Below, piece after piece: positions 11,444-63,866 of a stretch of DNA of 64,000 nucleotides; the stretch's first letter is position 1, and each line of letters begins with the position of its first letter. The stretch is from a virus. The translations under genes were made by a program, and so were the position numbers. Below the pieces are notes generated by a model. It did no database searches, had not been told where the DNA came from, and saw only the letters and a list, made by a program, of their open reading frames with translations. The stretch lies in the IMG/VR virus record IMGVR_UViG_3300027733_000028, positions 62,001 through 126,000 of that record, one strand, 5' to 3'.

Positions 11444-11456
11444 TCATATAATTATT

Positions 11457-11870: not shown

Positions 11871-12516
11871 TTACATATCACCATTAGTACAACCTTTAAT
11901 TCTCGAAGTATTTCTCTATCAAAACAATTATAAAGATCGTTTATTGGTATCTGAGTTACGAAAGAAGACTAATATTATTCAAAATGGCGAAGATGAGAAT
12001 TCTTTCTTTGTTAAAGCAGATGATGTTTTTTTCGTGATTAGCTCAAAATTTGCCAAAGATCTAGATACATTCAGAAATTCATCGGATAAAACTATTTTTA
12101 AAAATGCCACTTCGATTTACTTTCTAGATACAATTCTAGAAAGGTTTCAATCTATAAAGTACTTCAAAATTAATGTATCTCAATCTACCAATTTTACTAG
12201 AGAGAAAGAAAACGTCATTAATTTTGATTATCGAATAGCTCATTCTCGAGTAGATCTTACTTCTGAATTTGATGGCGTAGATCTATTTCTATTGGAGTGT
12301 ATTTTGCGAGATATTAAAATTTTCGAATATGATATTCTTCAACCGAAGGCTTATACCGAGATAAATGCACACGATCTAATTGATAAACTATCCATCTATC
12401 TTACCGGCATAGAAGAGAGTAGCGAAGAATTCGAAATTATCCAAAGAATTCTTATGATTATTGGTCCAAAACTCGAACAGGACAATTCAATTATACTTCT
12501 AATTATTAAGAAGTAG
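11863..12516 (+). CDS. Hypothetical protein, probably virion or DNA-metabolism related
   Basis: The ATG at 11863 gives 217 residues, overlapping the previous gene by 8 nt, which suggests coupled translation. The protein is acidic, rich in Ile, Phe and Asp, with many long hydrophobic strands and no signal peptide. There is no catalytic motif or recognised family. The next genes (12548 onward) are virion-type, so this may be the end of the replication group or the start of the structural group. Confidence 0.55.
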   Translation: MNDYISPLVQPLILEVFLYQNNYKDRLLVSELRKKTNIIQNGEDENSFFVKADDVFFVISSKFAKDLDTFRNSSDKTIFKNATSIYFLDTILERFQSIKYFKINVSQSTNFTREKENVINFDYRIAHSRVDLTSEFDGVDLFLLECILRDIKIFEYDILQPKAYTEINAHDLIDKLSIYLTGIEESSEEFEIIQRILMIIGPKLEQDNSIILLIIKK

Positions 12517-21100: not shown

Positions 21101-21398
21101 TTACATTCAAGATGGTATTGAGGCTATCCTTAAAAATTACCGTTGGGAATTCAACAGTGCTAATAATCGTTTAGAAATTAAAACTTTAGCCGACAATTTC
21201 CTATCACAAATCCTTTCTGATGGTGGAGTTTACGACTTCCAAAACATTATGGATACAACTAACAATACGACTGAGATCATCGATAACAATTATGGAATCC
21301 TTGATACTTACATCGAACCTGTTAGAGGAATGGGTATCTTAGTTCACAGAACTACAATTCTAAGAACTGGTGCTATTTCAACTGGTAACTTTATTTAA
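18147..21398 (+). CDS. 18: Contractile tail sheath protein, T4 gp18-like, enlarged
   Basis: A 1083-residue sheath subunit. The N-terminus (PSETIRLIIGFSKKGPFNTP and following strands) and the C-terminal polymerisation domain (residues about 960-1083, HVRELLIYIQDGIEAIL through GMGILVHRTTILRTG) match contractile-tail sheaths. T4 gp18 is 659 residues; the extra length lies in a Gly/Ala/Thr/Ser-rich central region (about 340-690) that looks like added surface beta-domains, which could decorate the tail outside. The gene follows a late-type motif, and a hairpin and the tube gene follow, the usual sheath-tube order. Confidence 0.92.
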   Translation: MAISPSLQQFKSSGVYRLEFDKSQITNIPSETIRLIIGFSKKGPFNTPVLCKDTVFFKEIFGDIDTSLERKGSFFHRTALVSLDRGPVIVLNLLNLDDTLDQSQFRSISTASWQANSAVKYAPVSNYFNQDKFWFTDAQALIDTADNSDYQSVLAQRLLNLANVGRKNMSVFTKKSTTLGFDILAKDWYGTGKVPEFINENDYISDYMVDLIIVEGDFSNYQSLAIDPIYGTYFDATGLKTTITDSYGNILDGLTAFLNLNSVNVLGVYTGCLIPEFQDKNGNNLFIQDLVNLETSKTGLLLGINVDTIDDAPETIGNDLIDLIGHGIESQEPTVVDFLSYYGSIVSAMPYAGATGIDTLIVAGTAGQTGAQALMIASAGLTGASATNGWKTTTGHYDTLLVYGPSATLPTSFASKFANETAFATFRTAVSVDNTFIKAGASANTTGASGNYSYLASESYDTTTDILTLKISNVAGSGVTGPTSVAQGYYYLYPVGLTAGGTASLPVIQSVNFNFAEGGNLFTGVANQLYQDNLSGILTDGDKVKVNNAGATATAYAEFNRVSTNDFSGATFTNANAFGNEAPILNAFTNYIEVNAYTNPNLSTGATAITPQTTYVVNTLTGNINESFALWGGTAYTNPTNVVWVDNGSTGPLGLNGFNGLIIKNQLLLQNFGGTGGATSNSPITGKSRLTRILSVAEITDPTSDLYKKIKITTVDPIFISATSEIERYKEASNFVTHYRPSALRGYTLRTGQMPDGTDTRQNEILDVMYNSNIAAALADRETISFRYIIDSFQGTIEPSTKIRLTKLAKNRQSALAIVNMPSVKQFKDSTNPIFKLTSSSQFDAAYIADGGNLSTNPSNIFSLPGIADGGNYSAFYGPNLTIREAGKNTSVPPAAHVGNLYIDKYTQALPYSIIAGPRRGVITGTGLVGVEYNFDRTDLDSIEPFGYNAIVNKRGFGLTINANQTAQQTVKSALSQIHVRELLIYIQDGIEAILKNYRWEFNSANNRLEIKTLADNFLSQILSDGGVYDFQNIMDTTNNTTEIIDNNYGILDTYIEPVRGMGILVHRTTILRTGAISTGNFI

Positions 21399-26926: not shown

Positions 26927-28288
26927 TTGAAATTAAGACAAGGGTTATTATTCCTAAAATCTCTACACACAAGATCTAAATCCGATGAAGAAGTTCTTCA
27001 ATGGATAGAATCTAGACGATCATTAGTTAAGCACACGATTCAACAAATCGATCTTAATAAGCTAAATGGTTGGAATTTCTACGATCATAAGATAGAACAT
27101 ACTTCTGGTAAATTTTATCAGATTCATATTAGACGCAATGAGTTAGATGGAAGGATTTGGGATCAACCAATAATCAATCAACCCGAAATTGGTATTCTTG
27201 GATTTATTACCAAACAAATCGATGACGTACTTCATTTTCTAGTTCAAGCTAAAATTGAACCAGGAAATATCAATATCGTTCAGTTATCACCAACCGTACA
27301 ATCAACTAAAAGTAATTTCACTAAAGTTCATGGTGGTGCATTAACACCCTTTGTAGAATATTTCTTAAAAGGAGAATCTAGAATTTTAGTAGATCAACTA
27401 CAATCCGAACAATCTAGTAGGTTCTTTCAAAAACGTAATCGCAATATTATTATAGAAGTTGAAGATGAGTTATCTCATGAAAATTATTTATGGATGACTC
27501 TTGGAGATCTTGTTGCATTAACTAGATATCCTAATACTGTCAATATGGATAGTCGAACCGTTTTAAGTTGTATTCACTTTGGTTCATATTCATTTGAACA
27601 TCTAGAACTAAGAGATTTTCTTGGTGGAATTTCACATGATTCTGCTTGGATAGATTCACTACTTCGTAAAGATGTATATCAAAAATCCCATCCAGAAATT
27701 CTTTCATTAATTACCGATCTTAAATTTAGAAGAGAAGCTTTGACTAGGTTAATTTATCTTTCAGAATCACATGATTGGAATTTGATTGATGGTAAGATTG
27801 TTCATAAAGATGAAAAATATTTTGATGTAGTAGGTTATCGAATATTTATTGAAAATCGAGAATCCGCTCAATGGGATCAACCTTTAATCCGACCTAAATC
27901 TACTGGAATATGTTGTTTCTTTGCTCGTAAATTTGAAGGAGTATTTCACTTACTAGTTCAGCTAAAAGATGAGATTGGATCTTTTGATGGTGTTGAAATG
28001 GCACCAACTATTCAAATGTCTGAAGAGAATTTAGATCTATCGCCTTTCTTTGAATCGTATCAAAGACTAATAAATACAGATTCGGTTTTATTTGATGTTA
28101 TGCAATCCGAAGAAGGAGGAAGATTTTATCAAGAACAAAACCGAAATATTATCATAGAAGTTAATGAAGAACTGGAACTTCCAAGAAATTATATTTGGAT
28201 GACTCTTAATCAACTTAAAACATTCTTACAATATAACAATTACGTAAATATTCAAACACGTTCAATTATGTCATCTTTACCTCTATGA
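26927..28288 (+). CDS. NDP-hexose 2,3-dehydratase (EvaA family)
   Basis: A 453-residue protein made of two homologous halves (about 1-220 and 235-453), each with W-x-x-x-x-x-x-I-x-H, a WDQP-I sequence, LVQ-K, E/QMAPT-or-LSPTVQ, and R-F-x-x-x-x-R-N-I-I-I-E; the tandem layout is typical of NDP-4-keto-6-deoxyhexose 2,3-dehydratases that start 2-deoxysugar synthesis. The start is a TTG at 26927, because a stop codon lies in frame just upstream and no ATG is nearby. It overlaps the reductase gene by 4 nt. The 4,6-dehydratase and nucleotidyltransferase that must act before it are not in the window. Confidence 0.88.
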   Translation: MKLRQGLLFLKSLHTRSKSDEEVLQWIESRRSLVKHTIQQIDLNKLNGWNFYDHKIEHTSGKFYQIHIRRNELDGRIWDQPIINQPEIGILGFITKQIDDVLHFLVQAKIEPGNINIVQLSPTVQSTKSNFTKVHGGALTPFVEYFLKGESRILVDQLQSEQSSRFFQKRNRNIIIEVEDELSHENYLWMTLGDLVALTRYPNTVNMDSRTVLSCIHFGSYSFEHLELRDFLGGISHDSAWIDSLLRKDVYQKSHPEILSLITDLKFRREALTRLIYLSESHDWNLIDGKIVHKDEKYFDVVGYRIFIENRESAQWDQPLIRPKSTGICCFFARKFEGVFHLLVQLKDEIGSFDGVEMAPTIQMSEENLDLSPFFESYQRLINTDSVLFDVMQSEEGGRFYQEQNRNIIIEVNEELELPRNYIWMTLNQLKTFLQYNNYVNIQTRSIMSSLPL

Positions 28289-29238
28289 AAGTAGCTATTC
28301 TAAATTGTTCAGATATTGCAAAACGAAGAATGATTCCGGCATTTCAGGCAATACCTGAAGTTGAAGTTTCTATCGTATGTAGCCGAGATATTCGTAGAGC
28401 TAAACAATATGCTGAAGAATTTGGAATCCCAAAATATACGGATAATCCAGATGAAATTATTGGAGTTGATCTAGTTTATATTTCATCTCCTCCATCTGAA
28501 CATTTTGATGCGATTAAAACATTTATAAAGAGAAAAATTAATATTCTTTGCGAAAAATCTCTTACCATAGATGCATATCAAACAACCTATCTAATTAATC
28601 TAGCCGATAAACAAGGAGTTCTTATACAAGAAAATTATGGATTTCCTTTTCATACTCAGTGGAAATGGATAAAAGAAAACCTAAATAAAATAGGAGATCT
28701 TCTTTACATAAGAAGTGGATTTGAATTTCCTCCAAGAAATACCGAAACAGATTTTCGTTACAAATCTGCTCTCGGTGGTGGTGCTCTTTTCGATGCCGGT
28801 GGATATCCTATTAAATTAGCCTCTTTATTATTGGGAACTCCTCAAAAACTTGATGCAGTTACTCATATATCAAAATCACTTGATATTGATCTTTCTGGAA
28901 GAACATTTATTATTGATGAAACTGGAAAATCTGCATTTTTAACTTGGAGTTTTGAATCTACTTATCGTTGTGATGTAGAAATTGTAGGAACTCAAGGAAC
29001 AATTAAAGCTGGTAAGATATTTACTCCTAGAATTGATGAACATGTTGAAGTGTCAATTTCACTTATTGGAGAGCCGGTAGAAAGACAACAATTTGTTTGC
29101 GATCATTTCGTTGAACTTATTCGAGATTTTATAAATAGAATAAAGATTAAAGATAACTCTCATCATAAAAGTATATTAAAACAATCAAAATGGCAAACAT
29201 ATGTATCGTCTACTAGTATCAGAACCTTCACTAACTAA
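28285..29238 (+). CDS. Gfo/Idh/MocA-family sugar oxidoreductase
   Basis: A 317-residue NAD(P)-dependent enzyme: N-terminal Rossmann fold (VAILNCSDIAKRRMIPA, 3-19; the usual Gly-x-Gly is altered to N-C-S), YISSPPSEHF (65-74) and the family CEKS (89-92) with catalytic Lys91. In 2-deoxysugar pathways such enzymes reduce the 3-keto group left by the 2,3-dehydratase, and this gene overlaps that dehydratase by 4 nt, so that is the likely step. The C-terminal domain is complete. The end overlaps the aminotransferase start by 38 nt. Confidence 0.88.
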   Translation: MKVAILNCSDIAKRRMIPAFQAIPEVEVSIVCSRDIRRAKQYAEEFGIPKYTDNPDEIIGVDLVYISSPPSEHFDAIKTFIKRKINILCEKSLTIDAYQTTYLINLADKQGVLIQENYGFPFHTQWKWIKENLNKIGDLLYIRSGFEFPPRNTETDFRYKSALGGGALFDAGGYPIKLASLLLGTPQKLDAVTHISKSLDIDLSGRTFIIDETGKSAFLTWSFESTYRCDVEIVGTQGTIKAGKIFTPRIDEHVEVSISLIGEPVERQQFVCDHFVELIRDFINRIKIKDNSHHKSILKQSKWQTYVSSTSIRTFTN

Positions 29239-30283
29239 CTTCGAAGAATTTGCAAATATTGCAAAAGAAGTTTGGGCAAGTGGAATCCTAACGCACAATG
29301 GACCTAAGGTCAAAGAACTCGAACATCGGTTAAAAGAACAATGGCAGATACCTCATCTATCATTAGTTACAAATGGAACTATTGCACTTGAAGTTGCAAT
29401 GAGAGCTCTAGAACTTCCTAAAGGAAGTGAAATTATTACAACTCCATTTACCTGGATTGCAACTGCATCAGCTATTCAATGGCAAGATTATGAACCTATT
29501 TTTGTTGACGTTGATCCAAATACTCTTAATATAGATCCGGCTAAAATTGAAGAAAAAATAACAGATAGAACATCTGCTATTTTAGCGGTTCATGTATTCT
29601 CGAATCCATGTGATGTAGATTCTATTCAAGAAATTGCAGATCGTCGAGGTCTACGAGTTATTTATGATGGTGCTCATGCAGTTGGTGTAAAATATAAAGG
29701 AGTAGATCTTTCTCAATTCGGTGATATTACAACTCATTCATATCATGCAACTAAAATTTATAATAGTGGAGAAGGTGGATCGATTATTACTAGAAATCCA
29801 GAGTTAGCTAAAAGAATTGATCGTCTTCGCTTCTTTGGACATAATGAAAAGAAAGATATTGTACATGAAGGAACTAATGCTAAAATGCATGAAATCTCTG
29901 CTGCAATTGGATTAGCTAATTTAAAAATGTTACCTAAAACAATTATGCATAGAAAACTTTTAACTCTTATGTATAAACATAGAATGGAAGGTTTACCGGT
30001 TAGATATCAAGCAATCAGCAACGACTCTTATAATTTTTCATATTTCCCCATCATATTTGAAACAGAAGAACAATGTCTTAAAGTGTATGCGGCATTAGAT
30101 GCTATTAAAATTATGCCTCGTAGATATTTCTATCCATCAGTTAACGAATTCAAAATCTTTGATCCTCAATCATGTCCTATTAGCGAAGATATTTCTAGAC
30201 GAATTCTTTGTCTACCATGTCACGATGGTGTGAAGCTTATGGATGTCGATGAAATCTCACACACAATAATCAAAACTTTCTAA
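29201..30283 (+). CDS. DegT/DnrJ/EryC1-type sugar aminotransferase
   Basis: A 360-residue PLP-dependent aminotransferase. Signatures: NGTIALEVAMRAL (58-70), TPFTWIATASAIQW (81-94), FVDVDPNTLNID (101-112), YDGAHAVG (155-162) and the PLP-binding Lys185 in SYHATKIYNSGEGG. It would aminate a keto-deoxysugar nucleotide, probably at C4 after the dehydratase and reductase. The next gene is an acetyltransferase starting 1 nt after the stop, so the product is likely an N-acetylated amino-deoxyhexose. Confidence 0.92.
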   Translation: MYRLLVSEPSLTNFEEFANIAKEVWASGILTHNGPKVKELEHRLKEQWQIPHLSLVTNGTIALEVAMRALELPKGSEIITTPFTWIATASAIQWQDYEPIFVDVDPNTLNIDPAKIEEKITDRTSAILAVHVFSNPCDVDSIQEIADRRGLRVIYDGAHAVGVKYKGVDLSQFGDITTHSYHATKIYNSGEGGSIITRNPELAKRIDRLRFFGHNEKKDIVHEGTNAKMHEISAAIGLANLKMLPKTIMHRKLLTLMYKHRMEGLPVRYQAISNDSYNFSYFPIIFETEEQCLKVYAALDAIKIMPRRYFYPSVNEFKIFDPQSCPISEDISRRILCLPCHDGVKLMDVDEISHTIIKTF

Positions 30284-43261: not shown

Positions 43262-44008
43262 ATGGCTAAAAGAAGAAAGAATTATCAAGAGGAAGAACAA
43301 GATTACCAAGAGGTAATCAATCATTTCCAACCAAATCAACCCATTCTTGAAAAATACAAAATTGAGTTAAAACCTAAAAGCGAAAATCAAAAGATTTTTT
43401 TAGACTTAATAAGTAATAAGGAAATTGTAATATGTTCGGGTCCAGCTGGTACAGGTAAAACTTTCTTAGCTTGCGTTCAAGCACTTAAATTATTCAAATC
43501 CGAATTTAAGTATCGTAAAATCGTATTAGTAAAATCCGTTACAACTCTTAAGGATGAAGAGATTGGTTATCTTAAAGGAACTATGGAAGAAAAAATGGAA
43601 CCTTTCGTTTATTCATTCTTTCACAACTTCGAGAAAATCCTTCCCAAGAATGTTATTAAAAATTTAAAAGACTCTCAATCAATTGAAGTTCTTCCTCTTG
43701 CATATATGCGAGGAATTAATCTAGATAATTGTATTGTAATTGTCGATGAATGTCAAAATATTACACCTGATAATATGAGAACTATTATGACTCGTATAGG
43801 TGAAAATTGTAAGATGATATTCTTAGGTGATGAAGGTCAAATCGATTTGAAAAATAAGAAAAACTCTTCTTTACAGCTAATCATGGATAAATTCTCAACG
43901 GTTCCAGCAATTGGATGTATTAGATTCACCGAAGAAGATACGGTTAGAAATCCATTAATCAGAAAAATAGAAGAAGTTTTTAGATCTATTTCTAATCCTA
44001 CTGCATAA
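43262..44008 (+). CDS. phoH: PhoH-like ATPase
   Basis: A 248-residue P-loop protein: Walker A SGPAGTGKTF (59-68), Walker B VIVDECQN (about 160-167), then RIGENCKMIFLGDEGQIDL, the PhoH pattern. The N-terminus adds a charged helix. PhoH proteins are common in phages; RNA or phosphate-related roles have been proposed, and some are helicases paired with nucleases. Here it follows the tape measure by 18 nt and precedes a phosphoesterase-fold gene by 7 nt. Confidence 0.9.
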   Translation: MAKRRKNYQEEEQDYQEVINHFQPNQPILEKYKIELKPKSENQKIFLDLISNKEIVICSGPAGTGKTFLACVQALKLFKSEFKYRKIVLVKSVTTLKDEEIGYLKGTMEEKMEPFVYSFFHNFEKILPKNVIKNLKDSQSIEVLPLAYMRGINLDNCIVIVDECQNITPDNMRTIMTRIGENCKMIFLGDEGQIDLKNKKNSSLQLIMDKFSTVPAIGCIRFTEEDTVRNPLIRKIEEVFRSISNPTA

Positions 44009-47173: not shown

Positions 47174-47773
47174 ATGGCTAAAAACGAATCATTAAAGGAA
47201 TTAGGCGTTTCATTTAAAGAAACCAGATCAGAACGAGTATTTACCGATTTGTATCATCGACTTAAACCAGGATTAACAAATTATGTCTTTCAAATTGTAA
47301 AAGATTACGATATGTCTAATCATATTGTTTCGGCGGTAATGTCTGAGGTTTACAATAAAATCGATAAATATGATCCCAAATGGCATATATCAACGTGGAT
47401 TTATCGAATAGCATACACTCATGCTTGTGGTTATCTTCGTGCTAAAAAAGTACAAAGAACGGTTTCCCTTTCTGCATTCGATAACGATGAAAATCGTAAC
47501 CGTTTACATAAACTTGAATTTGAATCTATCGAAGATCATCGTGATGCAATCGAAAAACGTGAGGATGCTGATGCGGAAAAAGCACACATTTTATACCTTC
47601 GTACAATCGTCGATAATTTACCAATCGAATATCGTGAGGTAGTAGTTGAAAAATTCTATAACGATTTAAAATACGATGAAATCGCCGAGAAACTAAATAT
47701 TCCATTACATACCGTAAAAAATCGAATTTCTCGAGGAAAACGAATCATTCAAGAAGAACTTACCAAAAAATAA
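47174..47773 (+). CDS. ECF-like RNA polymerase sigma factor
   Basis: A 199-residue sigma-70 family protein. Region 2 (about 20-90) includes KYDPKWHISTWIYRIAYTHA, with the -10 recognition helix pattern, and region 4 (about 135-195) contains LPIEYREVVVEKFYNDLKY, then EIAEKLNIPLHTVKNRISRG as the helix-turn-helix. Regions 1 and 3 are absent, as in ECF factors. It probably redirects host RNA polymerase to phage late promoters, the role gp55 has in T4. It has its own promoter (copy J) and a strong terminator. Confidence 0.88.
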   Translation: MAKNESLKELGVSFKETRSERVFTDLYHRLKPGLTNYVFQIVKDYDMSNHIVSAVMSEVYNKIDKYDPKWHISTWIYRIAYTHACGYLRAKKVQRTVSLSAFDNDENRNRLHKLEFESIEDHRDAIEKREDADAEKAHILYLRTIVDNLPIEYREVVVEKFYNDLKYDEIAEKLNIPLHTVKNRISRGKRIIQEELTKK

Positions 47774-47789
47774 ATTAATTTGAAATATT

Positions 47790-47822
47790 CAATTGTCACT
47801 TATCAATGATAGGTGACAATTG
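47790..47822 (+). terminator. 15-bp hairpin terminator after the sigma gene
   Basis: CAATTGTCACTTATC pairs with GATAGGTGACAATTG (47808-47822) with one wobble and a 3-nt loop. There is no long T-run, yet it is the strongest hairpin of the region and symmetric enough to be bidirectional. Confidence 0.8.
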
Positions 47823-47896: not shown

Positions 47897-49819
47897 ATGA
47901 AGAAATTGCTTAAATCATTTCTATTGATGATTATTCTAGCTCTTCCAATTCTTACGTTTGCACAATCTGGTCCACCAGCACCAAGTGCAGGAATCTGGGC
48001 TTTAATAGATACCAACTATTCTGTTGGTACATCAACATTAGGAATATCAAAAGCCAGAATAACTCTTAAAAACACAACCAGTACATTATATACTGGTGTA
48101 CAATTTAGAGTATTCTACGACAAAAATGCTTTCTCATCTGCATCAGTTGCTTTAGTAGGATCAACAACTAATCTTTACCTACAATCAGTAGATAACAATA
48201 CGGCAGGTTATGTTACTATGTCTCTAGTTTATACAGGAAATAGTTCAGCATATACATTAGCAGACGGTGAAAGATTTGAAATTACATTTAATCACGTATC
48301 ATCCGGTGCATTTTTTGCCTTACCAAGTATTAGTGCATTAACCTGGACTGGTTCTGCTACTTTTCCTGAGATTGCTGCTGAGCAAACTGGTTTAGATACG
48401 GTCTTAAATTTACATAGTTATGGTGGAACTTGGTTAAGACCACAACTTAGTTATCATGGTAAATTTACTAACGTAACCGCAACACCAGCTAAAAACCTTC
48501 CGCTTTCATTAGAAAAAAAAGTTAAGATTGGTGGAACTTGGGGTGCACATGCAACTTACACAACTAACCTTTTAGGAGTATTTTCATTTACGGAATTAAT
48601 CGATACAACTTATTATGATGTTCGTCTTTCTATTCAAGGAGATACAATGTCAGTTGGTAACGTTATTTCAACTGCCGATGCTCAGCTAATTAATCAATGG
48701 GTTCTTGGTGGAGCTACTCCTTCTGGATTTGATTTTTATACTGGAGACGTTAATTCATCTAATGGAATATCCATCACCGATGCTTATGGAGTATTTGGTA
48801 GAATTGCCGGTAGATTTAGCACTTGGCCTAACTCAGTTAAAGATGTAAAATTCTTTACTGAAACAGAATATACCACAATCGTTGGAACCCCAACCACAAA
48901 CTTTACTGGAACTATTTCAGGAGCTACGAACTTCTATTTTGATATACTTCCTGGAGCACCAGATAGTGTAACTTATTATGTATGTGTACCTGGTGATGCA
49001 AATGGAACCGGTTATCATATGGCTCGTCTAACCCCAATAGATATTATTGTTAGTCCACCTGCCGGAACTCCTATCCAACAAGAAAATGTTATTGATATGA
49101 AAGTTGAATATGACTTTCCTACATCTTCTATGGAAATAGGTCTACCTTCACTTTCTGTTAAAGAAGGAAATCTAGTGGAACTTCCAGTTACTGTTAAAAC
49201 TAATGGAAAAGATATTTCAGCATTACAACTTTCAATGCTATACGATCAAACGCTTTTACAATTCAAAGATGTTAAGAATTCTCAAAAATCCATGTTTTGG
49301 ATGTCTTCTATTAATCCTATGAATGGTATTATAGAATGGGCCGGATATGATCCTTCATCTAACAAATCATATATGATTTCTGATGGATATGAAATATTCA
49401 CTCTTCGTTTCTTGGCTTTGAAACCTCAAGCAGAATGGAATCAATCACCTCTTTATACTTCTCGTAAATTTTCAGGTGATGCTTATTCTAAAGATATGAA
49501 TATTACTCCAGCAAATGGAATTTTGATTGTCGCTAAAATGGCACCTATTTCTGGAGGTTTAAGTGAAAATGAAATGACTATATTTCCAAATCCAACATCT
49601 GGTGAAATTACCATCGACTTTACCGTAAAACAGACAGGTCGAGTAAAGTTATATATAGTAGGCATGAATGGAGAAATCAATCACATAATTCTTGATAAAG
49701 ATATGCCAGAAGGTGAATATGTTTATACTTCAAATATTAATCATCTTACTCAAGGAATTTATGTTGCTTCTTTACAAGCCAAGAATCAAACTATAAGTAA
49801 AAAAATAATCAAAAACTAA
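47897..49819 (+). CDS. Exported surface protein: cohesin-like and dockerin-like domains with T9SS sorting domain
   Basis: A 640-residue protein. Signal peptide (1-22, LPILTFAQ). Beta-sandwich (about 25-170) with cohesin-like strands, then a carboxypeptidase-like fold, then a dockerin-like motif (DVNSSNGISITDAYGVFGRIAGRF, shortened: Asp/Asn loop then ITDAYGV). A second cohesin-like domain follows (about 405-545). The last 80 residues start ENEMTIFPNPTSGEITIDF and end IYVASLQAKNQTISKKIIKN, a type A T9SS C-terminal sorting domain. It would be secreted by the host type IX system and displayed on or released from the cell surface. T9SS cargo in a phage is very unusual. Confidence 0.85.
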   Translation: MKKLLKSFLLMIILALPILTFAQSGPPAPSAGIWALIDTNYSVGTSTLGISKARITLKNTTSTLYTGVQFRVFYDKNAFSSASVALVGSTTNLYLQSVDNNTAGYVTMSLVYTGNSSAYTLADGERFEITFNHVSSGAFFALPSISALTWTGSATFPEIAAEQTGLDTVLNLHSYGGTWLRPQLSYHGKFTNVTATPAKNLPLSLEKKVKIGGTWGAHATYTTNLLGVFSFTELIDTTYYDVRLSIQGDTMSVGNVISTADAQLINQWVLGGATPSGFDFYTGDVNSSNGISITDAYGVFGRIAGRFSTWPNSVKDVKFFTETEYTTIVGTPTTNFTGTISGATNFYFDILPGAPDSVTYYVCVPGDANGTGYHMARLTPIDIIVSPPAGTPIQQENVIDMKVEYDFPTSSMEIGLPSLSVKEGNLVELPVTVKTNGKDISALQLSMLYDQTLLQFKDVKNSQKSMFWMSSINPMNGIIEWAGYDPSSNKSYMISDGYEIFTLRFLALKPQAEWNQSPLYTSRKFSGDAYSKDMNITPANGILIVAKMAPISGGLSENEMTIFPNPTSGEITIDFTVKQTGRVKLYIVGMNGEINHIILDKDMPEGEYVYTSNINHLTQGIYVASLQAKNQTISKKIIKN

Positions 49820-49824
49820 TAATC

Positions 49825-50154
49825 ATGTCAGAAGAAACACAAGATCAAAATGACGGAACTTGGTCAGGTCTAAAGAAAACTTTAATAGGAACTCTAACCA
49901 CAGTTATTGCTGGCGGAGGAATCTGGTTATCTACTACTCTATTTGGTGGTGGACACGAAGATAAAGAAGAAACTAAAACCGAGCAAGCTGCACCAGCACC
50001 AGTTGTAATTAATGTACAACAAAATCAAGAGAATACTCAAAAACAACAAAACAATGGTGGTACCACTACTATCATCAAAGAAAGAGTTATAGAGAAAGCT
50101 CCTGCTGAAAAGAAAGAAGAAAAGAAAAAAGAATCTGAGGATGCTCCTTGGTAA
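49825..50154 (+). CDS. Single-pass membrane protein with charged, low-complexity tail
   Basis: A 109-residue protein: a short N-terminus, one Gly-rich membrane segment (about 19-41, TLIGTLTTVIAGGGIWLSTT), then a Gln/Asn-rich linker and an acidic/basic tail (EKKEEKKKESEDAPW). The layout fits a spanin-like or holin-related protein, or a membrane partner of the exported cluster. It follows the T9SS protein by 5 nt. Confidence 0.6.
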   Translation: MSEETQDQNDGTWSGLKKTLIGTLTTVIAGGGIWLSTTLFGGGHEDKEETKTEQAAPAPVVINVQQNQENTQKQQNNGGTTTIIKERVIEKAPAEKKEEKKKESEDAPW

Positions 50155-50173
50155 TTAAAAAAATTAAAACAAA

Positions 50174-50470
50174 ATGGCTAAATTACAAAACACCAAACCT
50201 GGATTCTTTAAGAGAATGTTTATGGATGATAACGATATTAATGAAAAATCTATCGTTGGATTTTGTGCTTTCATTGTGATGGTTATTGCATTTGGAGTTG
50301 ATATTTATACCGGTTTCAAAGGTATGCCTTTCGAGATTAATGAATTCATTTTTGATGGATTTATGGTTATTACTTTAGGTGCATTTGGTATCGCTTCAGT
50401 TGATAAGTACTTAACCGGAAAGAATAAAAATGAGAGTTCATCATCTAATGAAGAACCGCCTATTGAATAA
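50174..50470 (+). CDS. Two-pass membrane protein, holin-like
   Basis: A 98-residue protein with two membrane segments (about 27-47 and 58-80), a basic N-terminus and an Asn/Ser/Glu tail. The size and topology match class II holins, and the small membrane gene before it could be an accessory. The 3' end overlaps the in-frame upstream extension of the next gene. Whether it acts in lysis or supports the exported cluster cannot be decided. Confidence 0.6.
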   Translation: MAKLQNTKPGFFKRMFMDDNDINEKSIVGFCAFIVMVIAFGVDIYTGFKGMPFEINEFIFDGFMVITLGAFGIASVDKYLTGKNKNESSSSNEEPPIE

Positions 50471-50480
50471 ACCAAAATTT

Positions 50481-51200
50481 ATGAAAGCGATTATAATTTC
50501 TATATTGCTATTATTTTTTGCTCAAGCAAGTATTGCTCAGATTGGTACTATAAAATCTGAGCAATATCAAGCTGAGTTTGAAAAGAAGCAATCTCTTGAT
50601 GCATTACCAGAATATACTGATACAGTTAAAGTTCCCATTCAAATTCTTAAAATTGGAATCAATTCAGAATTGTATGAGATGTACCCTGAATTGAAAGATA
50701 AAAGAGTTGGTTTAGGTGTAACTAATATTGTTCTAGAATATCTTGAATATACTAATCGTTTTGTATTCACTGAAGATAAACTTGAAATTAAAGAACGTAT
50801 GGTTCAGCAATTTAAAGCATCTGATAAAGGATTTACTGAAAATAAAATAGACGGTAGAGGAAAGATCAAACTCGCTAAATATTTTGTTTATATTGAGGTC
50901 TATGATTTTTCTGTATCTGATGATGAAGTTGTAAAAATTAATGGCGAATCAAAAACCACTCAAATAACTCGTTTAGGTTTACAAATTAAATTTGTGGATG
51001 CTGAGACTGGTGAAATTATTATGGGATCCGGTCTTGGTGAAGCATCAACTATTAAGACGGTTTCTATTTTAGATGGAGTTGATGATAGTGAAATTAAGTT
51101 CAATCAATCACACATTGGTATAACTACCAAGAAATCTCTTGAAACGGCATCTTCTAGAATTGTTTCGAGAATGATTAAAAAAGGCATATTCAAATCGTAA
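50481..51200 (+). CDS. CsgG-like outer-membrane secretion protein
   Basis: The ATG at 50481 is chosen because it starts a signal peptide (MKAIIISILLLFFAQASIAQ); an upstream in-frame ATG at 50430 lies in the preceding gene. 239 residues: the pattern VGLGVTNIVLEYLEYTNRFVF, IKLAKYFVYIEVYDFSV, ITRLGLQIKFVDAETGEI and SLETASSRIVSRMIKKGIF is that of CsgG, the curli secretion channel of Gram-negative bacteria. No lipobox Cys is evident after the signal, unlike E. coli CsgG. It may form an outer-membrane pore for neighbouring exported proteins. Confidence 0.75.
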   Translation: MKAIIISILLLFFAQASIAQIGTIKSEQYQAEFEKKQSLDALPEYTDTVKVPIQILKIGINSELYEMYPELKDKRVGLGVTNIVLEYLEYTNRFVFTEDKLEIKERMVQQFKASDKGFTENKIDGRGKIKLAKYFVYIEVYDFSVSDDEVVKINGESKTTQITRLGLQIKFVDAETGEIIMGSGLGEASTIKTVSILDGVDDSEIKFNQSHIGITTKKSLETASSRIVSRMIKKGIFKS

Positions 51201-52964
51201 ATGTACATTAGATCAATTATATTCTTTATTGCCTTTTGGTTCACGTCAATAGCAAGTTATGGTCAGTCTTTTAATTATTCATATACTGATCCTTGTACAG
51301 GTGTAGTCAAGACAATACCGGTTTCTACTAATGGAATAACGGTAACCTATTACGGCCAAATCCATACATTTCAACCTACTGATTTTTACAATGGAGGTTT
51401 TGAAAGTTGGGCTCAAACGGTATACTCATCCTTTGGAAATAATAATCCATGTGCTTCTATTGTAGGTCTTCCTACTGGAATTAATATAGCACAAAACACA
51501 GCAATCAATTTCTTAAGTATTATAAATTCTCTATCTGCTATTAGTGATTTATCTTCTTTAGGTGGAGCTACTAATTTATTATCAGGAATTGGAAGTGTTT
51601 CCGGTTCTACTAGTAATAAAAAGAAAGATGATAAAAAGAGTGGATCCGCTCAAACAGACGGAACAACCACAACTACTGAAGGTAGCGTATCAACTCCTAA
51701 TGGAGGATCAACAACATCAGGTTCATCAGGAAATTCCGGATCCACTCAAACGAATGGAACTGCTACAAATACGGAAGGAAGCGTATCAACTCCAAGTGGA
51801 GGTTCAACAACTTCAGGATCTTCTACTAATCAAGGAACTGGAAATACAAATCCAACTCAACCTACTCAAACAGGAGGTCAAACAACTCAACCACCGGTAG
51901 GTTCTACTCAAAATCAAACTGGCACAAATGGAAATAATAACACGAGTAATACCAATAGTAATTCTAGTGGGTCTAGTAATACTAGCAATAATACAAACAA
52001 TACTCAACCTACGACTGGTACAAATCAAACACAAAACCCTACCACAACCCAAAATGGAAATTCACAGAGTGGAAGCACAAATTCAAATAGCGGCAATGCT
52101 AACCAAAATGGGAGTGGATCCTCTAATAGCAATGGATCGAGCAACCAAAATGGTAGCGGATCAAACTCAAACGATGGATCTTCTCAAGAAGGTAAAAGTG
52201 GAAGCGGAAATACTCAAGGAAGCGAAACGCCTAAAGAAGAAGGTGGAAAAACCAACCTAGTAGGTGGAGCCGTTTCGACTTTAGCAAATTCAACTAGTTC
52301 TGGTAAAGCCGCTTCAACTGAAAGTAGAAAACCCACAATTCTAGGAAGTAGTGATTTTGTTGGATTTAATTTTAAAGATTCCGATATTGATCGAGGAGCT
52401 AAATTTACAGGAGGTTATACTTCATTAAGATGGGATGGACAAAGATCCCATGGAATTTTAGTTGATTATACAACTGCTCTTAAAGGACCAAATATTACTG
52501 GATTTTATGCAATCATAAAGAAGAAGAGAATTGATTTAATATCAACTACGCTTACATTAGGATTTGATCGAAAGACTTCGGTTTATGGAACTTTGGCTCT
52601 TGGTCAAATGTGGAATATTGATAAAAAGAAAAAACTTAAAGCAGTATACATGTTAACCGGATCATTTGGTTCTGTATATGGCGAAGAATTTGTTGGTACT
52701 GCTGCAATTGCCGGTGTAATGTACGATTGGAAAATTTCTAAACGAATAGATATTAAATTAATGGGGCTATATGTCTATGCTCCATATGTTAGTTATTATA
52801 ATGACATACTACTAAAATCTCCTCATGTAGTTCTTCCTATCATTGGAACTAACATTGGACTTACGAAGAGATTTAAGTTAAACATAAATGGTGGTGGAGC
52901 TTGGGCATTACAAGAAAATGCATTAAACTACACCATAATGATGGGTACTAGATTTTTATTATGA
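51201..52964 (+). CDS. Exported protein: long Ser/Asn/Gly/Thr/Gln-rich region and C-terminal beta-barrel candidate
   Basis: A 587-residue protein starting at the stop codon of the CsgG-like gene. Signal peptide (1-21, SIASYGQ). An N-terminal domain (22-140), then about 220 residues of low-complexity S/N/G/T/Q sequence with repeating blocks (GSVSTPNGGSTTSGSS), then about 200 residues with amphipathic strands (GFNFKDSDIDRGAKF, then YTSLRWDGQRSHGILVDYTT) ending GTRFLL, as in small outer-membrane barrels. It resembles a displayed surface anchor or adhesin stalk. A +2-frame open frame within the low-complexity region is judged a compositional shadow. Confidence 0.7.
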   Translation: MYIRSIIFFIAFWFTSIASYGQSFNYSYTDPCTGVVKTIPVSTNGITVTYYGQIHTFQPTDFYNGGFESWAQTVYSSFGNNNPCASIVGLPTGINIAQNTAINFLSIINSLSAISDLSSLGGATNLLSGIGSVSGSTSNKKKDDKKSGSAQTDGTTTTTEGSVSTPNGGSTTSGSSGNSGSTQTNGTATNTEGSVSTPSGGSTTSGSSTNQGTGNTNPTQPTQTGGQTTQPPVGSTQNQTGTNGNNNTSNTNSNSSGSSNTSNNTNNTQPTTGTNQTQNPTTTQNGNSQSGSTNSNSGNANQNGSGSSNSNGSSNQNGSGSNSNDGSSQEGKSGSGNTQGSETPKEEGGKTNLVGGAVSTLANSTSSGKAASTESRKPTILGSSDFVGFNFKDSDIDRGAKFTGGYTSLRWDGQRSHGILVDYTTALKGPNITGFYAIIKKKRIDLISTTLTLGFDRKTSVYGTLALGQMWNIDKKKKLKAVYMLTGSFGSVYGEEFVGTAAIAGVMYDWKISKRIDIKLMGLYVYAPYVSYYNDILLKSPHVVLPIIGTNIGLTKRFKLNINGGGAWALQENALNYTIMMGTRFLL

Positions 52965-53953
52965 GAAAGTTTATCACCACAATAATTGCCATCTTGTTAA
53001 CCGGTGCTACATATGCACAAGCGTTTACATATTCAGGCTACATATATAACGCAAATGGTACAGGAGCAGTAAATGTTCCAGTAAAGTTATATAAGAGAAC
53101 AACTCCAAATATAACTGGTTTTACGTCTCAAACAAACTATAATGGTCACTCATATTATAGATCAACCGGTTCTATGACGTGGACTGATGCAAAACAAGCT
53201 TGCATAAATATGAATGGGCACTTGGTTACAATTGCTAACGCCTCTGAACAATCATTCGTATTTAATACATGGCCATCAGGATGGATTGGATTTACTGATG
53301 AATCGGTTGAAGGTACATTTGTATGGGTAACTGGAGAACCTGTAAATTATACCAATTGGAATCCTGGTGAACCAAATAATGCAGGCAATGAAGATTATGC
53401 TCAATTTGTTAGTGGCGGTAAATGGAATGATCTACCTAACACATCTTTACCTTATGTAATTGAATTTGATTATATTGTAACCACTACTCCATGGGTTTTG
53501 CATCAAACCGTATACACAAACGCTAGTGGATATTATTCATTCAATCAATTGACAAATCCATCAGTTGAATGGTATATTCGATATGATGCACCAACACCAA
53601 TCACAATACATCAAACATCTGATTTAAGTACAATTGGAAATATCGTATTAGGAGTTACCACCAAGAAATCTTTACATTGGAATATGTTCGATGTGAATAA
53701 TGATGGAAATATAACGATATCTGATGCATACTATGTGAGTGGAAAGAAAAACGGAATATTTGCAAGTTGGATTGGATCTCAATCATCAGCCTTATATACG
53801 CCAGCCCAATTTAATATTCTAAATACCGGAACTACTAATTTAAAGGCAACATACCCTGGAGTAAGCTCATTTACAATATCAACTCCAGTGAATGGTGGAT
53901 CTGCAAATTATTACCTAATTGCTCCAGGTTATGCTGGACAAGTAACATACTAA
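52961..53953 (+). CDS. Exported C-type lectin-domain protein with dockerin-like module
   Basis: A 330-residue protein with signal peptide (1-19, TGATYAQA). A short carboxypeptidase-like start, then a C-type lectin domain (about 43-160): WTDAKQACINMNGHLVTI, the GEPNN (EPN-type) loop and KWNDLP (WND). EPN predicts mannose- or glucose-type ligand binding with Ca2+. Then a dockerin-like stretch FDVNNDGNITISDAYYVSGK (about 241-260), matching the one at 47897. The start overlaps the upstream stop codon (ATGA). There is no T9SS signal. Confidence 0.82.
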   Translation: MRKFITTIIAILLTGATYAQAFTYSGYIYNANGTGAVNVPVKLYKRTTPNITGFTSQTNYNGHSYYRSTGSMTWTDAKQACINMNGHLVTIANASEQSFVFNTWPSGWIGFTDESVEGTFVWVTGEPVNYTNWNPGEPNNAGNEDYAQFVSGGKWNDLPNTSLPYVIEFDYIVTTTPWVLHQTVYTNASGYYSFNQLTNPSVEWYIRYDAPTPITIHQTSDLSTIGNIVLGVTTKKSLHWNMFDVNNDGNITISDAYYVSGKKNGIFASWIGSQSSALYTPAQFNILNTGTTNLKATYPGVSSFTISTPVNGGSANYYLIAPGYAGQVTY

Positions 53954-53959
53954 ATATTT

Positions 53960-54415
53960 ATGAAAAATCTACTTCTTATATTACTTCTGCTTCCAATGTT
54001 ATCATTCGGACAAATCAATTCATGTGTTCATGTTGATTCGGTTTATTCAACCGCTAAATATAAGGATATGGGTAATCGTGATATTCGCTTTGGTATTAGA
54101 CAAATGACCGAGGATATTCTTTCTGAAAAATATTGTATCAATTCATCATCTCCGGATGTAGATGTAGAGGTATTTTTCTTTGGTTTACCTAGAAGTACTT
54201 ATAGAATAATTGGAGTAGAGAAAACTAATCAAATAACTCAAGTTGGCATTCGTATTTATTATAATGGTGTTAAATACGAAGCTTATGGAGAATCTGATAC
54301 TGAAATACGAACTGTGATGTTAGAGATTGTTGAAGGACAGACTCCATTTTCAAAGATGACGGTTTCTAATGCGATAAAAAAAGCAATAGAATCATGCGTA
54401 TCTCAAATGCCTTAA
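53960..54415 (+). CDS. Small exported protein with CsgG-like strand pattern
   Basis: A 151-residue protein with a signal peptide (1-18, LPMLSFGQ). The mature part has DIRFGIRQMTEDILSEKY, IGVEKTNQITQVGIRIYYNG and a C-terminal helix NAIKKAIESC, which recalls the CsgG-like protein at 50481 (IT.LGLQI and the C-terminal helix) at smaller size. It may be a partner or decayed relative of that channel. It lies 6 nt after the lectin gene and overlaps the next gene by 22 nt. Confidence 0.6.
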   Translation: MKNLLLILLLLPMLSFGQINSCVHVDSVYSTAKYKDMGNRDIRFGIRQMTEDILSEKYCINSSSPDVDVEVFFFGLPRSTYRIIGVEKTNQITQVGIRIYYNGVKYEAYGESDTEIRTVMLEIVEGQTPFSKMTVSNAIKKAIESCVSQMP

Positions 54416-54855
54416 TTATATTCTTACTCTTTATACCATCATTCATATTTGGACAAATTAAAGTTCAAGATGTTGGTGACGGATGGCAAAGCAAAGTAGA
54501 TTCTGCTATTACTCTTATACAGAAAACTGATACCATCGCCTATCAAATCTTAATAGAAAATTGTAAGGATGTGGAATTTATTATTGGTAAGTACTCTACT
54601 ACTAAACCTCCTTATACGATTGCTATAACCACTAAAGATATGAATCTAAATTCCATCAATAATATAGCAGCCGTGTTAATACATGAATCATATCATCTTT
54701 TTATATACAATAACAAAATAGTATATTCACCAACCGATGAAGAAGCCACTTGCTATGAAAGAGAATATGAATTTCTTTGTAAACTCCCTAATGTTGAAGA
54801 TTGGCTATTTCTTAATGCCATGAACAACATCATCCTTTTCCGAAATCGGAAGTAA
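54394..54855 (+). CDS. Exported HExxH protein, putative zinc peptidase
   Basis: A 153-residue protein with signal peptide (1-20, IPSFIFGQ). HESYH (about 107-111) matches the zincin motif HExxH, followed by DEEATCYEREYEFL with a possible third ligand. Small size and lack of a typical propeptide make peptidase activity uncertain. It ends the run of six exported proteins that began at 47897; the common direction, small gaps and overlaps suggest one operon. Confidence 0.65.
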   Translation: MRISNALIIFLLFIPSFIFGQIKVQDVGDGWQSKVDSAITLIQKTDTIAYQILIENCKDVEFIIGKYSTTKPPYTIAITTKDMNLNSINNIAAVLIHESYHLFIYNNKIVYSPTDEEATCYEREYEFLCKLPNVEDWLFLNAMNNIILFRNRK

Positions 54856-60929: not shown

Positions 60930-61583
60930 ATGGCGATACCTAAAATTATACATCAAATTTGGATTGGTCCCAAGAAATGCCCTGATAAATTAATACAAAC
61001 TTGGCGAGATCTACATCCAGAAGAAGATGGTTGGCAACATATACTTTGGACAGATAAAGATGTAGATGATTTCAAAATGAAAAATATCCGTCATTATAAT
61101 GATATTGAAGAATGGGCAGGAAAAGCAGATGTTTGGCGATATGAAATACTTTATCGTTATGGTGGATTCTTTTGTGATGCAGATTCTATTTGCACTAATA
61201 CATTAGATGATTTTTTCTTTGAACATGATTGTTTTGCTGGTTTCGAAAATGAACAAGCTAGACCTAATCTAGTGGCAAACGGTTATATCGGTGCTTCAAA
61301 AGAAAATCCATTCATGAAAATCCTTATTGATGAGTTATACAAAACTACATCGGTTTCTCATAAATATACTAATCGTATGGCTTGGCAAAATACCGGTCCT
61401 CTTTTCTTTACGAACACAATCATTAAACATCAATATCCAATTTCGGTTTATCCATCATTTGTTTTTATACCTGAACATTATTCAGGAGTCAAATATACAG
61501 GAGATAAAAAATCTTACTCTAAACAATTATGGGGTAGTACGCAAGAATTTGGAGCTAACCCAAACTTTTATAACGAATTATGA
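60930..61583 (+). CDS. Glycosyltransferase family 32-like (Och1/capsule type)
   Basis: A 217-residue enzyme: IPKIIHQIWIGPKKCPDKL (3-21, typical GT32 start), WAGKADVWRYEILYRYGG (about 62-79) and FCDADSI with the DxD motif (about 81-87). Such enzymes transfer hexoses to glycans from nucleotide sugars. It opens the last gene group in the window, all of glycan synthesis. It may build a glycan on host surface or virion. Confidence 0.88.
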   Translation: MAIPKIIHQIWIGPKKCPDKLIQTWRDLHPEEDGWQHILWTDKDVDDFKMKNIRHYNDIEEWAGKADVWRYEILYRYGGFFCDADSICTNTLDDFFFEHDCFAGFENEQARPNLVANGYIGASKENPFMKILIDELYKTTSVSHKYTNRMAWQNTGPLFFTNTIIKHQYPISVYPSFVFIPEHYSGVKYTGDKKSYSKQLWGSTQEFGANPNFYNEL

Positions 61584-62284
61584 TAGCATCTGTAATTGTT
61601 CCTATTTACAATACACCCATTGAATGGCTTAAACTTTCAATCGAATCGATAAAAGCACAGACATATAAAGATCTGCAAATTTTACTTATTGATGATTGTT
61701 CAACCGATCTTGAAGTACAAAAAGCCTGTCAAGAGCTAGAGGATTCTGATAATAGAATTGAATACTATAGATTAGAAGAAAATCGAGGTATTGCCGGTGC
61801 ACTTAATGTAGGTTTGCATTATTCGAAATCTGAATGGGTTTTTAGAATGGATGCCGATGATATTATGTTACCAGGAAGAATTCAATTACAAATGGATTAT
61901 CTTAAAGAAAATCCAACCGTTGATATTCTTGGTGGTGGTCTTTTTTATCTAATTAAAAATGAAGATACTTGGAATTATGATCCTAATCCAATAATTCATC
62001 CTAATATAATTACTCGTGAAATTGGTAAAAACTCTCATTGGTTTATTAATCATCCAACAGTAGTTTACAGAAAATCTAAGATTCGAGAAATTGGTGGTTA
62101 CGATGAATCTTTACGAGGTCTTCCTGAAGATTATGAACTTTGGTGTCGTTCTTTACGTAATGGATTGACCATACATAACATTGCTCTTCCTTTAATATTT
62201 CTAAGACTTTCGCCAAAATCACTTTCTCAAAATTTCGATTCTAGAGTACTTGATTTTCTAAATCAAAACCAGAAAACCCTATGA
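61580..62284 (+). CDS. Family 2 glycosyltransferase
   Basis: A 234-residue GT-A enzyme: SVIVPIYNTP (4-13), QILLIDDCSTD (33-43), ENRGIAGALNVGL (69-81) and RMDADDIMLPGR (90-101) with the DxD-type metal site; GLPEDYELWCR (160-170) has the catalytic-base region. Overlaps its neighbours by 4 nt on each side, so it is part of the operon. Acceptor unknown. Confidence 0.92.
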   Translation: MIASVIVPIYNTPIEWLKLSIESIKAQTYKDLQILLIDDCSTDLEVQKACQELEDSDNRIEYYRLEENRGIAGALNVGLHYSKSEWVFRMDADDIMLPGRIQLQMDYLKENPTVDILGGGLFYLIKNEDTWNYDPNPIIHPNIITREIGKNSHWFINHPTVVYRKSKIREIGGYDESLRGLPEDYELWCRSLRNGLTIHNIALPLIFLRLSPKSLSQNFDSRVLDFLNQNQKTL

Positions 62285-63054
62285 TAACTACTGCATTAAT
62301 AGGTGGACTTGGAAATTACATGTTCCAAATTGCCACAGCTCATTCTATCGCTAAAGATGTAAGAACTGATGCCTTTTTTGATTTAAGTAGAACCGGCCAA
62401 TCACAAAGACACATCAATTATTATTTAGATAATATCTTCAAAAATGTAAAGTTCGGAACCCCAATCCCGAAATACTTATATAACGAGAAAAAATTCAGTT
62501 TTGATACGATCCCAGCAGTAGATGATTTATATTTAAGCGGATATTTTCAAAGTGAAAAGTATTTTGAAAAATACGCTAAAGAAATACGAGATCTATTTAG
62601 ATGCAAAGAAACTGAAATTAAATTAAGGGAACATATCTCACAAATCGATTTTACTTGCTCAATACATGTTAGACGAGGAGATTATCTTCAATATCCGAAT
62701 AAACACAATCAATCACCTGCAGATTATTATAAAACAGCAATTCAATTAGTAAAAGATCAATTTCCTAATTATGAAGTAACTTTTCTGGTATTCTCTGATG
62801 ATATACAATGGTGTAAAAATCATTTCATTGGAATGGAATATATGTTCATTGAAGGATTCGAAGATTGGGAAGACATGATACTCATGTCTTTATGTGATGC
62901 TAATATTATAACAAATTCCACCTTTTCTTGGTGGGCAGCTTGGTTAGGTGAAACTCCTAATAAGCTAATCATTGCACCAGAAAAATGGTTTGGTTCAGAA
63001 GGACCACAAGATCAACAAGATATTATACCTGAACGATGGATAAAATTAAGATAA
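62281..63054 (+). CDS. Alpha-1,2-fucosyltransferase-like, family GT11
   Basis: A 257-residue GT11 enzyme: GGLGNYMFQIATAHSIA (8-24) and the hallmark SIHVRRGDYLQYP (127-139, HxRRxDY binding GDP-fucose), then VFSDDIQW and NSTFSWWAAWLG (216-227). It would add fucose in alpha-1,2 linkage. The overlap of 19 nt with the next gene suggests coupled translation. A GDP-fucose pathway gene may start at 63863. Confidence 0.9.
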   Translation: MITTALIGGLGNYMFQIATAHSIAKDVRTDAFFDLSRTGQSQRHINYYLDNIFKNVKFGTPIPKYLYNEKKFSFDTIPAVDDLYLSGYFQSEKYFEKYAKEIRDLFRCKETEIKLREHISQIDFTCSIHVRRGDYLQYPNKHNQSPADYYKTAIQLVKDQFPNYEVTFLVFSDDIQWCKNHFIGMEYMFIEGFEDWEDMILMSLCDANIITNSTFSWWAAWLGETPNKLIIAPEKWFGSEGPQDQQDIIPERWIKLR

Positions 63055-63866
63055 GAGATTATGCCTTTGCTCATGCAAAGTACAGTACAGATTTTCAAAA
63101 CTCTCAATTTATTGAATGGGATAGAGGACCTATAACTGCTGAAGACAAAGTGGTATTCTATACTGACAATTCATTAGAATTAGTTCACCGAGAATCTTCG
63201 CAAAATGCACATTGTAAAAAGATTGCATGGTTGCTAGAACAGGTGGATGTATGTCCTCATTCATACGATTTCATCCGAATAACTCGTTATTTTGATTTAG
63301 TTCTTTCGCATAACATAGATTTCGTAAATGAAATGCAAAATCGAGGAGTTGAAGCATTATGGGTACCATTTGGTGGTTGTTGGATAAAACCAGAAGATCA
63401 ACGAATATATGATAAACATGGAATGACTTCAATCATTGCATCAGATAAACAAATGACGGTTGGTCATCGTTTACGACACTCAGTCATTGCAGCAACTAGA
63501 GATAAACTAACTGTTCGAGGAAGAGGCTATACGCCTGTTGATTATAAGCTCGATTTACTCAAAGATTTTAGATTCCATGTAGTTATTGAAAACGCTAATA
63601 TTGCTGGTTGGTTTACTGAAAAGCTAATTGATTGCTTTAGAACAGGAACCGTTCCTATTTATTGGGGAAATCCTCTGATCGAAGAAATTTTTGATCGTGA
63701 AGGAATGATACTTTGCTACAATGAACAACAAATTATTGATGCAATAAATTCTGTTACTCTAGAAAAATATGATACGATGAAAGAGGCAATACAACGAAAT
63801 TTCGAAATTGCACAAACCTACCTAATTGCCGAAGATTATATCTATAAAAATATTCTCAATAAATGA
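63036..63866 (+). CDS. Alpha-1,3-fucosyltransferase-like, family GT10
   Basis: A 276-residue protein. The donor-binding region FHVVIENANIAGWFTEKLID (178-197) with IENxxxxxxxTEK and TGTVPIYWGNP (202-212) matches GT10 fucosyltransferases. The N-terminal half is GT-B-like acceptor domain. It overlaps the GT11 gene upstream and the epimerase gene downstream (4 nt), consistent with a fucosylation operon. Specific linkage is uncertain. Confidence 0.82.
   Translation: MDKIKIRDYAFAHAKYSTDFQNSQFIEWDRGPITAEDKVVFYTDNSLELVHRESSQNAHCKKIAWLLEQVDVCPHSYDFIRITRYFDLVLSHNIDFVNEMQNRGVEALWVPFGGCWIKPEDQRIYDKHGMTSIIASDKQMTVGHRLRHSVIAATRDKLTVRGRGYTPVDYKLDLLKDFRFHVVIENANIAGWFTEKLIDCFRTGTVPIYWGNPLIEEIFDREGMILCYNEQQIIDAINSVTLEKYDTMKEAIQRNFEIAQTYLIAEDYIYKNILNK

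Follow-up and report, generated by a model that had tools for sequence, protein, structure and literature searches.

Eight genes, which we call A to H, lie head to tail on one strand (+) at positions 47,897-54,855 of a 64,000-nucleotide stretch of viral DNA, here termed the window, which represents bases 62,001-126,000 of the 207,040-bp virus record IMGVR_UViG_3300027733_000028 and belongs to a contractile-tailed phage (terminase at 16.3 kb, 1,083-aa tail sheath at 18.1 kb of the window). A first-pass annotation, made from the letters alone, described the region as six proteins with signal peptides and two small membrane proteins, encoded by genes that overlap or abut. This layout is borne out: all of the open reading frames (ORFs) lie on one strand where it had placed them, intergenic gaps from A to H range from -41 to +19 nt, signal-peptide-like N-termini are found on A, D, E, F, G and H, and the two small membrane proteins are B and C (Table 1). 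The same annotation overlooked two cohesin-like domains in A and an X-dockerin-like half that is common to A and F. Its proposal of a single surface machine is retained insofar as the genes form one conserved module of exported surface proteins, but the curli-type principle on which it was built gives way to what is probably a cohesin/X-dockerin scaffold.

A conserved unit of exported proteins

For D, scans of viral contigs returned 144 relatives, and for the lectin F 156; the best 80 of each were taken, and iterated hidden Markov models (HMMs) were run over 162 loci, the window and the cultured Flavobacterium phage vB_FspM_immuto (NC_055915; immuto) included. Matches to the A and F models occur in 162/162 loci, these two models cross-matching through the half that the proteins share; when the two are counted as separate genes, each is present in 149. 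The set of A, D, E, F and G is complete in 125 of the 162 loci, and many of the remaining loci are cut by contig ends. In the 45 loci that remain after redundancy removal at 90% D identity, the genes follow the order A-B-(C)-D-E-F-G-(H), apart from F/G swaps, a leading F in loci of the immuto type and an H that in some cases precedes A. The carriers of the module are large viruses of Flavobacterium-like bacteria and are diverse, with terminase identities to that of the window down to 25-31%. Loci L043 and L045 have D proteins 68-69% identical to the window's and terminases only 28-31% identical, and the corresponding values for immuto are 63% and 27%. The A-H cluster is a real conserved unit, and it moves between distantly related phage lineages. 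Many loci (e.g. L009, L010, L020, L022 and L025) also have a gap of ~390-630 bp between B and D that the window lacks and that probably holds an extra small gene.

Export is a property of the families and not only of the window's proteins. Among distinct homologues, our own heuristic calls a signal-peptide-like N-terminus in 99% of A (103/104), 96% of D, 92% of E, 93% of F, 79% of G and 96% of H, against a background of 9% for the other ORFs of the same loci; given this difference, the cluster proteins are predicted to be exported at a level above chance.

Table 1. Features of the A-H cluster and its upstream flank; positions are those of the window, and fractions give the loci with an HMM match
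Feature	Position	Strand	Description
Phage sigma factor	47174-47773		PF08281, phrog_1740; directly upstream of A
Inverted repeat	47790..47822	+	15-bp stem; between sigma-factor gene and A
Gene A, 640 aa	47897..49819	+	Signal peptide, cohesin-like 1, X-module, dockerin-like, cohesin 2, type IX secretion system (T9SS) sorting tail; predicted surface scaffold
A cohesin-like domain 1, residues ~28-180 (boundary approximate)	47978..48436	+	Minor PF00963 stretch; beta-sandwich in model
A X-module + dockerin-like + cap, residues ~183-372	48443..49012	+	Homology to F half; weak scaffoldin-dockerin match
A cohesin domain 2, residues ~413-540	49133..49516	+	PF00963 at residues 414-514
A T9SS C-terminal sorting domain, residues 562-638	49580..49810	+	PF18962, E 1.7e-10
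Gene B, 109 aa	49825..50154	+	Small single-span membrane protein, P/Q/K-rich tail; next to D; 142/162
Gene C, 98 aa	50174..50470	+	Small two-span membrane protein, optional; 65/162
Gene D, 239 aa from likely start	50481..51200 (ORF from 50430)	+	CsgG-fold exported protein (predicted); 148/162
Gene E, 587 aa	51201..52964	+	Signal peptide, conserved N-domain, S/T/G/N/Q-rich stretch, barrel-like C-terminus; 157/162
Gene F, 330 aa	52961..53953	+	Exported C-type lectin head on X-dockerin-like stem; PF00059 E 3.5e-17, PF00404 E 0.0013
F X-dockerin-like half, residues ~159-330	53435..53950	+	Homology to A half
Gene G, 151 aa	53960..54415	+	Exported small relative of D; 144/162
Gene H, 153 aa	54394..54855	+	Exported HESxH metallopeptidase-like protein, frequent not universal; 89/162

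The predicted scaffold protein A and the lectin F

Domain matches and a structural model together point to A as a two-cohesin scaffold that carries a T9SS tail. Pfam reports cohesin (PF00963) in A above the cut-off at E 8.1e-13, in two stretches of which the best is located, and the AlphaFold2 model (predicted local distance difference test, pLDDT, 85.8) finds its best PDB matches among cohesins and scaffoldin Coh-X-Doc chains (4fl4, 3kcp). The first-pass reading of A as T9SS cargo is upheld both by its sorting domain, the only PF18962 domain in the genome record, and by the near-universal signal peptide of its family. Between the two cohesins, residues 197-368 are homologous to residues 159-325 of F (31% identity, E 7e-13). 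When the F half was compared with the rest of the genome record, A alone was recovered (32%, E 1.9e-14), and neither a third copy of this half nor a second cohesin protein was found there. The dockerin region of A has a weak match to scaffoldin dockerins (E 0.25), and a calcium-loop pattern is present in 91/105 distinct A and 92/102 distinct F proteins.

F was annotated as a C-type lectin, and its Pfam match agrees (Table 1). Among 92 distinct lectin-headed F proteins the sugar-site motifs EPN and WND are kept in 81 and 85, respectively. The head itself is not constant, however. In pairs of loci whose D proteins are 96-99% identical and whose F stems are 79-85% identical, the F heads are only 0-19% identical: the head is swapped while the stem is kept. 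By Pfam the heads comprise C-type lectin, C-type lectin interrupted by LamG (3e-13), GEVED (1.4e-11) and PA14 (2.5e-10); one further head, in L010, L011, L014 and L054, has no Pfam assignment and is NIDO-like by eye only. Locus L157 encodes, at 10938-12104, a second F-like protein of 388 aa that adjoins the first and has another head without assignment and a divergent stem.

Exchangeable lectin heads are also what one might expect of the phage particle itself, with lectin and scaffold serving as its receptor-binding structures: lectin-fold and LamG domains are known on phage tails and jumbo-phage virions (PMC7824862), and the swapping of heads is akin to tail-fibre variation. However, the conserved signal peptides and the T9SS tail would take these proteins out of the compartment in which virions are assembled, and the module is situated away from the window's terminase and tail-sheath genes at 16-21 kb; in immuto its neighbours are replication and nucleotide genes. 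We regard virion parts as the least probable of the explanations considered here. The tail sheath (18147-21398, phrog_34521) was noted in its own right as a long protein.

In 13 loci, immuto and its kin, A is split into two genes. The first encodes a cohesin-like domain and an X-dockerin-like half without a tail, and the second a cohesin and a T9SS tail, both of which Pfam recovers. Each half starts with its own signal-peptide-like sequence, and for this reason the split is not a frameshift artefact. In these phages the surface anchor is on the second protein only, and the X-dockerin half forms the C-terminal end of both the lectin and the first split-A protein. The simplest arrangement would be an anchor (gp15), an adaptor (gp14) and an adhesin (gp13) held together by non-covalent cohesin-dockerin contacts. 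Immuto thus has the same module in a cultured phage, as gp13-gp19, although it differs from the window in that the lectin gene comes first, H is lacking and C lies next to an endolysin gene. Its annotations name gp13 'lectin C-type' and gp15 'cohesin domain-containing' and leave gp14 and gp16-gp19 hypothetical; in open-access literature we found neither an account of the immuto module as a system nor virion proteomics of this phage. Ahead of the module, at L002 9935-10513 (L002 being the immuto locus), lies gp12, an exported NUC1-like nuclease with a signal-peptide-like start.

CsgG-fold proteins, remaining genes and surroundings

D had been read as a CsgG-like channel, and the CsgG fold is supported by model and profile alike. 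In a foldseek comparison of its AlphaFold model with the PDB, CsgG accounts for each of the 20 best matches (best E 1.1e-8, prob 1.00), and a broad CsgG set is matched in profile-profile alignment (hhalign) at prob 92 and E 6.6e-7. The model has long paired strands at residues 134-153 and 156-173, and the region of the CsgG hairpin GGVGARYFGIG is shorter and charged in D. The start of D is likelier at 50,481 (MKAIIIS...) than at 50,430, whereupon the overlap of C and D vanishes. The smaller protein G, which had been called a second CsgG-like protein, shares homology with D by profile comparison (hhalign prob 96, E 4.4e-9) and has diverged from it, but no direct link to CsgG itself emerges from the same kind of comparison (prob 15).

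The fold of D raises the question of whether the cluster secretes a curli-like amyloid, in which E would supply the fibre and D and G the channel of a type VIII secretion system. E does contain a low-complexity S/T/G/N/Q stretch (~residues 145-345), as the first reading had noted, and curli clusters are known in pelagimyophages (PMC7029224). However, E ends in a conserved, barrel-like domain of ~190 aa, recognized in the alignment as a putative barrel, and is not a small repeat protein; Pfam has no match for E, that region included, or for G. In addition, PF03783 matches nothing in the genome, even with the threshold relaxed to E<=1, D has no match in Pfam, and no curli family, CsgA/B curlin and CsgE/F included, appears among the Pfam matches of the module proteins, the rest of the genome not having been scanned for CsgA/B and CsgE/F. 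We therefore consider curli-like secretion highly improbable.

Of the remaining genes, B is a conserved member of the module, with a homologue in immuto gp16 (64% over 53 residues). C is not part of its core and is probably related to lysis; its homologue in immuto, gp192 (55%; 43,476-43,655), lies directly before the endolysin gp191 and the holin gp190, in the stretch L002 43413-44779. H was noted for an HExxH motif, which proves invariant, HESxH being kept in 89/89 homologues. The best family hint for H is SprT-like at E 0.092 only (Pfam), and no match was found in annotated phages, nor was H found in immuto. These genes could be taken to suggest that the cluster disrupts the envelope at lysis, the CsgG-fold proteins, the barrel protein, the metallopeptidase and the holin-like C together opening the outer membrane. 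The position of the C homologue and the peptidase-like nature of H would fit, and the CsgGF pore proposed for phage Melnitz offers a precedent (PMC9004378). Such a set would nevertheless leave the cohesin scaffold, the T9SS tail and the exchangeable heads without explanation. Moreover, C is optional, H was not found in immuto, and the endolysins and holin of immuto are located outside its module. We think a lysis set improbable.

The 123 nt that separate A from the sigma-factor gene fold into a hairpin of -17 kcal/mol (z -4.4; 0/200 shuffles as stable), and the hairpin, which is conserved in L006, is a probable transcript boundary or leader. On the + strand inside the module no terminator-like site occurs before the last bases of H, and sigma-70-type promoters and terminators are no commoner in the region than in shuffles. 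The element TATTTAT lies within 120 bp upstream of A in 22/53 representative loci; a related motif is also frequent before background ORFs, and because the element is common in the background it is no more than a candidate late promoter. The sigma factor adjoins the module in only 6/131 loci, all close, near-identical relatives, and is a separate feature, not a regulator of the module.

A comparison with host loci had been suggested as a way to find an origin by transfer. Among 201 Flavobacteriaceae genomes, D was found only on contig L165, which is phage-like and is the one through which the centre genome was included, and in one weak, partial match, and nearly all of the listed matches of A were to the T9SS tail alone. 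These results speak against recent transfer from host chromosomes, and the module appears to be resident in phages and not to have been borrowed recently from the host. D is also encoded on three contigs of bacterial metagenome-assembled genomes, L164 (Bacteroidetes), L165 (Flavobacterium) and L166 (Sphingomonadaceae), which look like phage contigs binned with bacteria.

A possible adhesin scaffold on infected cells

We propose, and consider rather probable, that the cluster encodes an adhesin scaffold that is displayed on the surface of infected Bacteroidota cells. Protein A would leave through the host T9SS, its sorting tail anchoring it outside the cell with its cohesins presented. F, a glycan-binding lectin on an X-dockerin stem, would clip onto these cohesins, as probably would A's own X-dockerin. 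The result would be anchor, adaptor and dockerin-bearing cargo as in cellulosome scaffoldins, with adhesion heads in place of enzymes. For F, which has no T9SS tail, we propose a separate route of export, in which D, G and the barrel protein E would form or assist a passage through the outer membrane, and H may be a periplasmic or surface metallopeptidase that processes the components. If display falls within infection, as we suppose, a head bound to surface glycans could benefit the phage in one of two ways: the infected cell might hold on to particles or other cells, thereby capturing or aggregating them for the next round, or its glycan receptors might be masked against rival phages. We slightly prefer capture or aggregation. 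In other words, the module may be a mobile phage 'scaffoldin', comprising a T9SS-anchored cohesin scaffold, an adaptor, an interchangeable dockerin-borne adhesin and a dedicated CsgG-fold export system, that captures hosts or excludes rivals; for this fuller statement we hold the case to be evenly balanced.

Several observations weigh against this proposal. Support for cohesin-like domain 1 comes from the model and from one minor Pfam stretch, and Pfam misses the domain in gp14. The dockerin is weak by sequence: the PF00404 match in F falls under the curated cut-off, Pfam finds no PF00404 in immuto gp13 or gp14, and of the two calcium loops only one is canonical. Co-variation of the F stem is weak and unspecific, with a partial r of 0.21 to the T9SS tail of A against 0.20-0.24 to its cohesins. 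On the export side, D matches a strict CsgG profile poorly (prob 14), its model is of moderate quality (pLDDT 70.7), and the window's D has no lipobox Cys; a lipobox-like Cys does occur in divergent homologues (e.g. L100, L105, L112, L127, L131, L132, L144, L150 and L157). Because of the missing lipobox and the poor profile match a pore is not established, and what stands of the channel first ascribed to D is the fold, whereas the PF03783 match and the lipobox are absent, the hairpin signature appears to be lacking, and both pore and lipidation are putative. Finally, phage Melnitz has curli pore genes, yet its host did not clump (PMC9004378).

Receptor masking, or superinfection exclusion, would use much of the same evidence differently: the lectin would bind the host's own glycans and block adsorption of rival phages, its heads being swapped as the receptors of rivals differ. 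A constant stem with swapped heads and the retention of sugar-binding residues in the lectin heads are consistent with this, and the variable T9SS cargo of Cryophage, PA14 included, has been suggested to act in inter-strain competition or superinfection (PMC7468147). Glycan-modifying genes are also present in the same phage. Masking would, however, need just a secreted lectin and no scaffold or CsgG-fold proteins; we regard it as possible but on the whole unlikely. The glycan genes lie at 28285-30283 and 61580-63866 of the window and encode a GFO/IDH oxidoreductase, a DegT sugar aminotransferase, and GT2 and GT10 (fucosyltransferase-like) glycosyltransferases, through which the phage may also alter the sugars of the host surface.

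Several known systems come close to the proposed scaffold. With cellulosome scaffoldins (type I/II cohesin-dockerin, X-dockerin; e.g. C. thermocellum CipA) it shares cohesins, a dockerin-like domain preceded by an X-module, a surface anchor and modular cargo with a common dockerin. It differs in being phage-encoded and anchored by a T9SS tail, in having two cohesins only and lectin or adhesion heads instead of glycoside hydrolases, and in that its cohesin-dockerin binding is putative. The curli clusters of pelagimyophage HTVC008M and methylophage Melnitz (PMC7029224, PMC9004378), for which suggested roles include 'sibling capture' (PMC7029224), are likewise phage operons of exported proteins with a CsgG-fold protein. 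They contain a PF03783-type CsgG (37-40% identical to that of E. coli), CsgF and curlin-like genes, none of which is present in the window's module, and the module has a cohesin/lectin scaffold instead. Cryophage also encodes T9SS-tailed proteins that vary between strains, with PA14 among them and a surface or superinfection role proposed (PMC7468147); these are individual variable genes, and no conserved multi-gene module of cohesin, X-dockerin and CsgG-fold proteins is described there. An uncultured phage protein 58% identical to A has been annotated singly. By membership tests the module is not a curli system and is not shown to be a cellulosome. In open-access literature we found no description of a phage cohesin-dockerin system or of a phage system of this composition, in agreement with the first-pass annotation, and the novelty lies in the assembly, not in its parts.

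Changes that phages make to the host surface are mostly attributed to single exclusion proteins or to sugar-modifying enzymes. If our proposal is true, this would be, to our knowledge, the first virus-encoded cohesin-dockerin assembly. If cohesin-dockerin binding fails, the module would be a variant of phage-encoded surface-protein clusters. Because immuto is cultured (host Flavobacterium LMO8), binding, surface display, aggregation and superinfection are directly testable, and the module supplies a testable set of partners for the puzzle of curli-like genes in phages. A display platform of several proteins that is conserved, spreads horizontally and takes exchangeable heads would imply that large phages construct extracellular structures on infected cells.

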